Made by a program: the position numbers and the translations under genes. From contig NZ_NMQZ01000001.1 in NCBI RefSeq assembly GCF_002864685.1, positions 124,001 to 188,000 of the forward strand: DNA of 64,000 nucleotides, written 5' to 3'. The notes beneath the pieces were generated by a model. The model worked only from the letters and a program-made list of their open reading frames with translations, ran no database searches and was not told where the DNA came from. Position 1 is the first letter of the stretch. Every line of letters starts with the position of its first letter. The DNA is from Alloalcanivorax mobilis (GTDB lineage: Bacteria; Pseudomonadota; Gammaproteobacteria; Pseudomonadales; Alcanivoracaceae). This document shows positions 59,558-63,083 of this stretch, piece after piece.

Positions 59558-63083
<3,526 letters not shown>

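Follow-up and report, generated by a model that had tools for sequence, protein, structure and literature searches.

A pair of very likely parS sites shares its bases with recF codons in Alloalcanivorax mobilis and in most sampled Gammaproteobacteria

Two exact parS palindromes in recF

The recF gene of Alloalcanivorax mobilis carries two exact copies of a 16-bp palindrome, and we hold with high confidence that these are the high-affinity parS centromere sites of the chromosome, maintained by DNA-level selection, which also shapes the RecF protein. They are very likely functional parS sites under double constraint. Both lie near one end of the window (the whole 64,000-nucleotide stretch analysed), within the following arrangement:

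59558..61972, minus strand: gyrB, 804 aa, the open reading frame directly downstream of recF
61983..63083, minus strand: recF, 366 aa, recognised as an open reading frame and by TIGR00611; holds sites A and C
62017..62032, palindrome with no strand assigned: parS site C, the second exact copy; recF residues 351-356, MFHVEH, followed by G357
62650..62665, palindrome with no strand assigned: parS site A, TGTTCCACGTGGAACA; recF codons aTG TTC CAC GTG GAA CAt, residues 140-145, MFHVEH
63148..63999, minus strand: 3' part of dnaN, upstream of recF and running past the window edge; TIGR00663, 274.7 bits

The recF product belongs to the RecF family by its score against TIGR00611 (311.3 bits, cut-off 172). 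Sites A and C are 633 bp apart, are read from the minus strand in one shared recF frame, and each match the consensus 16-bp parS palindrome with 0 mismatches. The original prediction of a perfect 16-mer at 62650-62665, read in recF as MFHVEH (residues 140-145), proved accurate in position and reading; it envisaged a single parS in recF, of which site A is real, but its exact twin at 62017-62032 had gone unmentioned. When up to 3 mismatches to the 16-mer were allowed, the window yielded these 2 exact matches and no others, whereas 100 shuffles of the window averaged 0.20 matches and only 2 of them reached two or more. The whole assembly (4,098,096 bases, 92 contigs) likewise holds 2 exact copies, both in recF, and a backward-read control 16-mer had 0 exact copies in the same 4,098,096 bases. 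Two additional places in the assembly have 2 mismatches to the 16-mer. At up to 3 mismatches, 30 parS-like places were counted in the assembly versus 12 for the backward control.

As is characteristic of chromosomal parS, copies are few and located in the probable origin region, both within recF with dnaN on one side and gyrB on the other. The chromosome also encodes a cognate ParA and ParB, as a ParABS system requires: ParB (TIGR00180, 202.7 bits, cut-off 58.45) is encoded about 29 kb from the recF sites on the same contig (locus L173), where a gidB-like open reading frame is followed by a parA-like one and then by parB (parA and gidB were named by inspection). In the mechanism that we propose, ParB would nucleate on sites A and C and then spread, and ParA would move the replicated origin region, with the parS pair lying in its dnaN-recF-gyrB stretch. 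Selection on the DNA freezes wobble bases in recF, and the same selection sets RecF residues V143, E/K144, H/Q/P145, H353, and E/K355.

Relation to characterized parS systems

The closest parallel is Pseudomonas aeruginosa, in which parS1 and parS2, the parS sites nearest oriC, are described as located in recF (PMC5521831, PMC3909081). According to Table 1 of PMC4368675, parS mutants were built with the coding sequence unaltered; the changes listed there for parS1 and parS2 hit wobble positions of x-F-H-V-E-x, and the parS2 mutant retains TG where the ATG codon has no synonym. From these wobble-position changes and the unaltered TG of parS2, we infer that parS1 corresponds to site A and parS2 to site C. 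That report states that the silencing effect of ParB was gone once parS1 and parS2 were mutated, that in vitro ParB binding was 2- to 10-fold lower for almost all mutated sites tested (the binding pairs shown are parS1 and parS3, the latter having the same sequence as parS2), and that a strain with parS2 alone intact displayed no par-mutant phenotype.(PMC4368675) ChIP-seq is reported to place ParB at parS1-4.(PMC10419367) By analogy with these experiments, sites A and C would bind ParB and function as parS in A. mobilis.

The two species share the gene and, as the synonymous mutants imply, the site sequence and the frame, x-F-H-V-E-P for parS1 and M-F-H-V-E for parS2. P. aeruginosa parS1 has one mismatch, a C at position 16, the change most often seen among site A copies with a single mismatch (61/74). 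They differ in copy number: P. aeruginosa is described as having the additional strong sites parS3 and parS4 and six weaker ones, whereas the A. mobilis assembly has no exact copy beyond the recF pair. The sites are also of the same 16-bp palindrome type as parS of Bacillus and other chromosomes, for which the consensus TGTTNCACGTGAAACA is given (PMC7022226) and which the T/A form carried by relatives of A. mobilis, TGTTTCACGTGAAACA, fits. However, Bacillus-type parS are described as clustered near oriC with no fixed host codons, while here most sampled members of the class retain both the position and the frame within a single gene.

Alternatively, the recF parS pair could also link segregation with how strongly the replication operon is expressed, with ParB loading tuning recF-gyrB and, indirectly, supercoiling, although we regard this as unlikely. 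ParB excess in P. aeruginosa is reported to lower expression of gyrB and its neighbors (PMC5521831), and the recF-gyrB interval is described as an unexplained hot spot for parS insertion in Caulobacter.(PMC5815017) However, the P. aeruginosa parB-null and parS-null strains are reported to alter, within this region, only PA0010-PA0015 (PMC5521831), and gyrB transcription is given as unaltered in the Caulobacter insertion strains.(PMC5815017) What these two papers report of the P. aeruginosa nulls and the Caulobacter insertions does not support simple silencing of recF-gyrB when ParB is at its native level.(PMC5521831, PMC5815017) Judged by the P. aeruginosa results, the effect on recF-gyrB expression that an earlier suggestion expected from ParB spreading is weak.

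Distribution of the recF sites

Both sites, scored as present at up to one mismatch to TGTTYCACGTGRAACA, are widespread in the order and class of A. mobilis. Of 145 genomes drawn evenly from the order, 141 had a RecF match, and 138 were used (G022, G031, and G052, with partial RecF matches only, were omitted). A class draw of 229 genomes included 192 matching the window RecF, and 60 from outside the order were taken among the matches listed. Site A was kept in 175 of the 198 recF genes (117/138 in the order and 58/60 in other class members, a set leaning toward more similar RecFs since it comprises nearly all top rows and then approximately every second). The corresponding counts were 180/198 for site C (125/138 and 55/60) and 166/198 for both together (112/138 and 54/60); the 18 genes scored without site C include that of L172, which is cut by the contig end. 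Where both sites were kept, they lay 606-693 bp apart in 165 of 166 genes; the single exception had a spacing of 804 bp. Of the 237 exact copies of TGTTYCACGTGRAACA in the 138 order genomes, 186 lie inside the recF open frame; in 64 genomes the exact copies number precisely two, and recF contains both. Two genes carry a third parS-like copy in another reading frame, one mismatch from the exact 16-mer (L167, nt 254 of recF; L207, nt 107).

Outside the class, none of 20 recF genes from other classes of the phylum (out of a draw of 150 genomes, with approximately 1.5 kb fetched for each) had a site at up to 2 mismatches. The recF parS pair is probably ancestral in Gammaproteobacteria, and its acquisition probably dates to the stem of that class or earlier.

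recF is a favored but not obligatory location for parS, since 9/198 genes keep neither site (8/138 in the order, 1/60 in the rest of the class) and some lineages carry parS elsewhere. Exact sites outside recF occurred in 28 genomes and were located in 26, with 15 loci mapped. In eight of these (L347, L348, L349, L357, L360, L364, L368, and L369), a parS copy lies within approximately 150 bp past the end of the gyrB coding sequence; six of the eight genomes are without site A, and L364 and L369 carry both recF sites as well. Two further loci, L354 and L372, have an exact parS between recF and gyrB, and parS of Xanthomonas citri is reported at the 3' end of dnaN.(PMC3937727)

Absence and decay of the sites without chromosomal ParB

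We compared site retention with ParB content among named loci, which were the best 80 of 254 and were found partly with a pattern favoring FHV or FHN, plus E. coli K-12. ParB was sought in 28 genomes of unstated completeness chosen from the 80. Sixteen of the 28 encode ParB (E at most 4e-79), and chromosomal ParB was absent from 12, eight without any match and four with weak matches only (best E 7e-17). By their record titles and standard taxonomy, we take these 12 to be enterobacteria and relatives, Orbaceae, and Pasteurellaceae. None of them had site A at up to one mismatch or an exact site C; three (Yersinia massiliensis, Rouxiella, and Brenneria) retained a one-mismatch site C, read as MFRVEH or MFRVEQ. 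Enterobacteriaceae and Pasteurellaceae are also described as being without par genes.(PMC4368675, PMC7022226) E. coli K-12 RecF has FHNEP and MFTVEKG, and the MFTVEKG stretch is 3 mismatches from parS.

Among the 16 ParB-bearing genomes, ten had at least one exact site, two had one-mismatch sites only, and four (Marinomonas, Marinobacterium, one Photobacterium, and Vibrio breoganii) had neither site within one mismatch. The Photobacterium and Vibrio loci L265, L269, L270, and L272 are without site A, and ParB was found in L265, L269, and L272, the three that were searched. In the three Vibrio loci among them, the core of site C is CATGTG. This suggests that the working parS of these Vibrionaceae is located elsewhere.

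Codon freezing within the sites

Codon choice in recF is most strongly fixed within the two sites. For each recF column, the use of the commonest codon among genes keeping the amino acid was compared with the expectation from each gene's own usage and expressed as a z-score; the scan of 198 genes scored 173 recF columns, 11 of them within the sites. The eight highest z of the 173 columns, from 8.6 to 20.3, all belong to site codons: GTG143 (20.3; used in 175/176 genes, with 55.3 expected), GTG354 (20.3; 181/184), GTG140 (16.2), CAC353 (15.3), CAC142 (14.6), GAA144 (13.0; 150/152, with 74 expected), GAA355 (12.9; 141/142), and TTC141 (8.6). The best non-site column reached 8.2, and non-site columns averaged 1.7 (sd 1.9). 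TTC352, CAT356, and CAT145 ranked lower (16th, 18th, and 29th), as expected since the parS bases permit alternatives there. In two genomes of the same genus, all 10 of 10 codons able to vary synonymously were identical within the sites, versus 127/269 (47%) and 102/250 (41%) elsewhere in recF. Both the z-scores and the same-genus comparison indicate the DNA-level selection expected of parS. Stronger conservation of the 16-mer than of synonymous sites in recF had been anticipated, and the wobble positions are indeed far more conserved; nor is the palindrome freely broken by synonymous changes in close relatives, both 16-mers being intact in the two same-genus genomes.

A constraint from translation or mRNA at two spots, or some other protein reading CACGTG, could in principle account for this codon choice in place of ParB. 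CACGTG is a generic palindromic core. We nevertheless consider this explanation very improbable: at two separate places in recF the frozen bases match the parS consensus, displaced or extra copies occur outside the recF and gyrB frames, after gyrB or between genes, the tested genomes without chromosomal ParB have no exact sites, and P. aeruginosa ParB is reported to bind the corresponding sites.(PMC4368675)

Which constraint sets the RecF peptide

Genes that have lost a site separate the residues owned by RecF from those following parS. Of the 23 genes without site A, 21 still have F141 and 18 still have H142, whereas entropy climbs from 0.09 bits (n=175 with the site) to 3.10 bits (n=23) at residue 143, from 0.59 to 2.43 bits at residue 144, and from 1.43 to 3.17 bits at residue 145. 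Without site C, F352 is kept in 17/18 and G357 in 17/17, whereas residue 353 goes from 0 bits with the site (n=180) to 2.79 bits without it (n=18). Since F and G survive site loss while the others scatter, this pattern indicates that F and G are RecF's own residues, and that V143, E/K144, H145, and H353 are set mainly by parS. Ownership of H142 appears mixed, as it is mostly missing in the 20 genes from other classes and mostly retained after site loss. RecF peptides from those classes are mostly of the DWxxFSxxR and FxVxxG types at the site positions, with FS for the most part where the class of A. mobilis has FH.

The same bases therefore do serve both parS and recF, as had been proposed for codons of a conserved RecF peptide, but the peptide is conserved largely through parS itself: F141 and H142 mostly outlast site A, V143, E144, and H145 scatter, and other classes mostly have FS. 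That RecF function alone preserves MFHVE, with the 16-mer as its incidental encoding, is very improbable. The persistence of F141, H142, F352, and G357 after site loss speaks for it, but it is already contradicted by the codon data (codon usage predicts 55 uses of GTG143 and 74 of GAA144), and the scatter of V-E-H after site loss and the absence of the peptide from the 20 other-class RecFs also speak against it.

Two sequence forms and a charge switch in RecF

The sites drift between a C/G form and the T/A form TGTTTCACGTGAAACA; the latter is present in many lineages and changes E144 or E355 to K. On a FastTree phylogeny of 279 RecF proteins built with the site columns removed, E/K changes number at least 20 at site A and at least 33 at site C. 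A model with dependent rates at position 12 and wobble position 5 was strongly favored over one with independent rates at site A (LR 43.7, p 7e-9, n 213) and at site C (LR 49.0, p 6e-10, n 233), whereas 15 control wobble columns gave LR of at most 12.7 for site A (at D137, which adjoins it) and 9.4 for site C. However, the wobble base of the opposite site predicted E/K just as strongly (LR 41.5 and 55.5), so a change purely local to each palindrome is not upheld. In an independent-pairs sign test, pairs changed the same way in 5.1 cases versus 1.0 the other way at A (median p 0.22) and in 3.8 versus 1.0 at C (median p 0.38); control column F147, set against site C, showed a comparable lean (4.8 to 1.7), and control column 51 contained no rows. 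A requirement of the palindrome for perfect symmetry can be rejected, since asymmetric sites with T at 5 and G at 12 are common (40/213 at A, 60/233 at C). We read these patterns as a probable joint drift of sites A and C, with a single ParB able to accept either half-site; GTTCCAC and GTTTCAC are named as bound half-sites.(PMC10419367)

Implications

The parS type and its placement in recF of P. aeruginosa were already known, whereas the class-wide dual coding and its effect on the RecF sequence are apparently new. We found no report of the class-wide conservation, the codon freezing, or the E/K switching in the open-licence literature searched; Livny et al. 2007, on parS distribution, falls outside that coverage and may already note the placement. 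A tentative scenario, which we hold possible rather than probable, is that a centromere entered recF on the gammaproteobacterial stem, altering as many as six residues, and that H142 then became entrenched and outlived the centromere where ParB was lost (as in FHNEP of E. coli). In this scenario recF-gyrB would be a privileged centromere position, and loss of a recF site would be made good next to gyrB because ParB loading there benefits the replication operon or the cohesion of origins early on.

This is a strong case of shared coding, since in most of a bacterial class a single stretch of DNA answers to two constraints that have nothing to do with each other: at two places in the same gene, a centromere fixes codons and part of the amino acids of a repair protein. 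Conservation of RecF residues need not signal RecF function. The remnants in recF suggest that the enterobacteria lacking a chromosomal ParB had ancestors whose recF carried parS, and the question of why centromeres return repeatedly to recF-gyrB is made testable.
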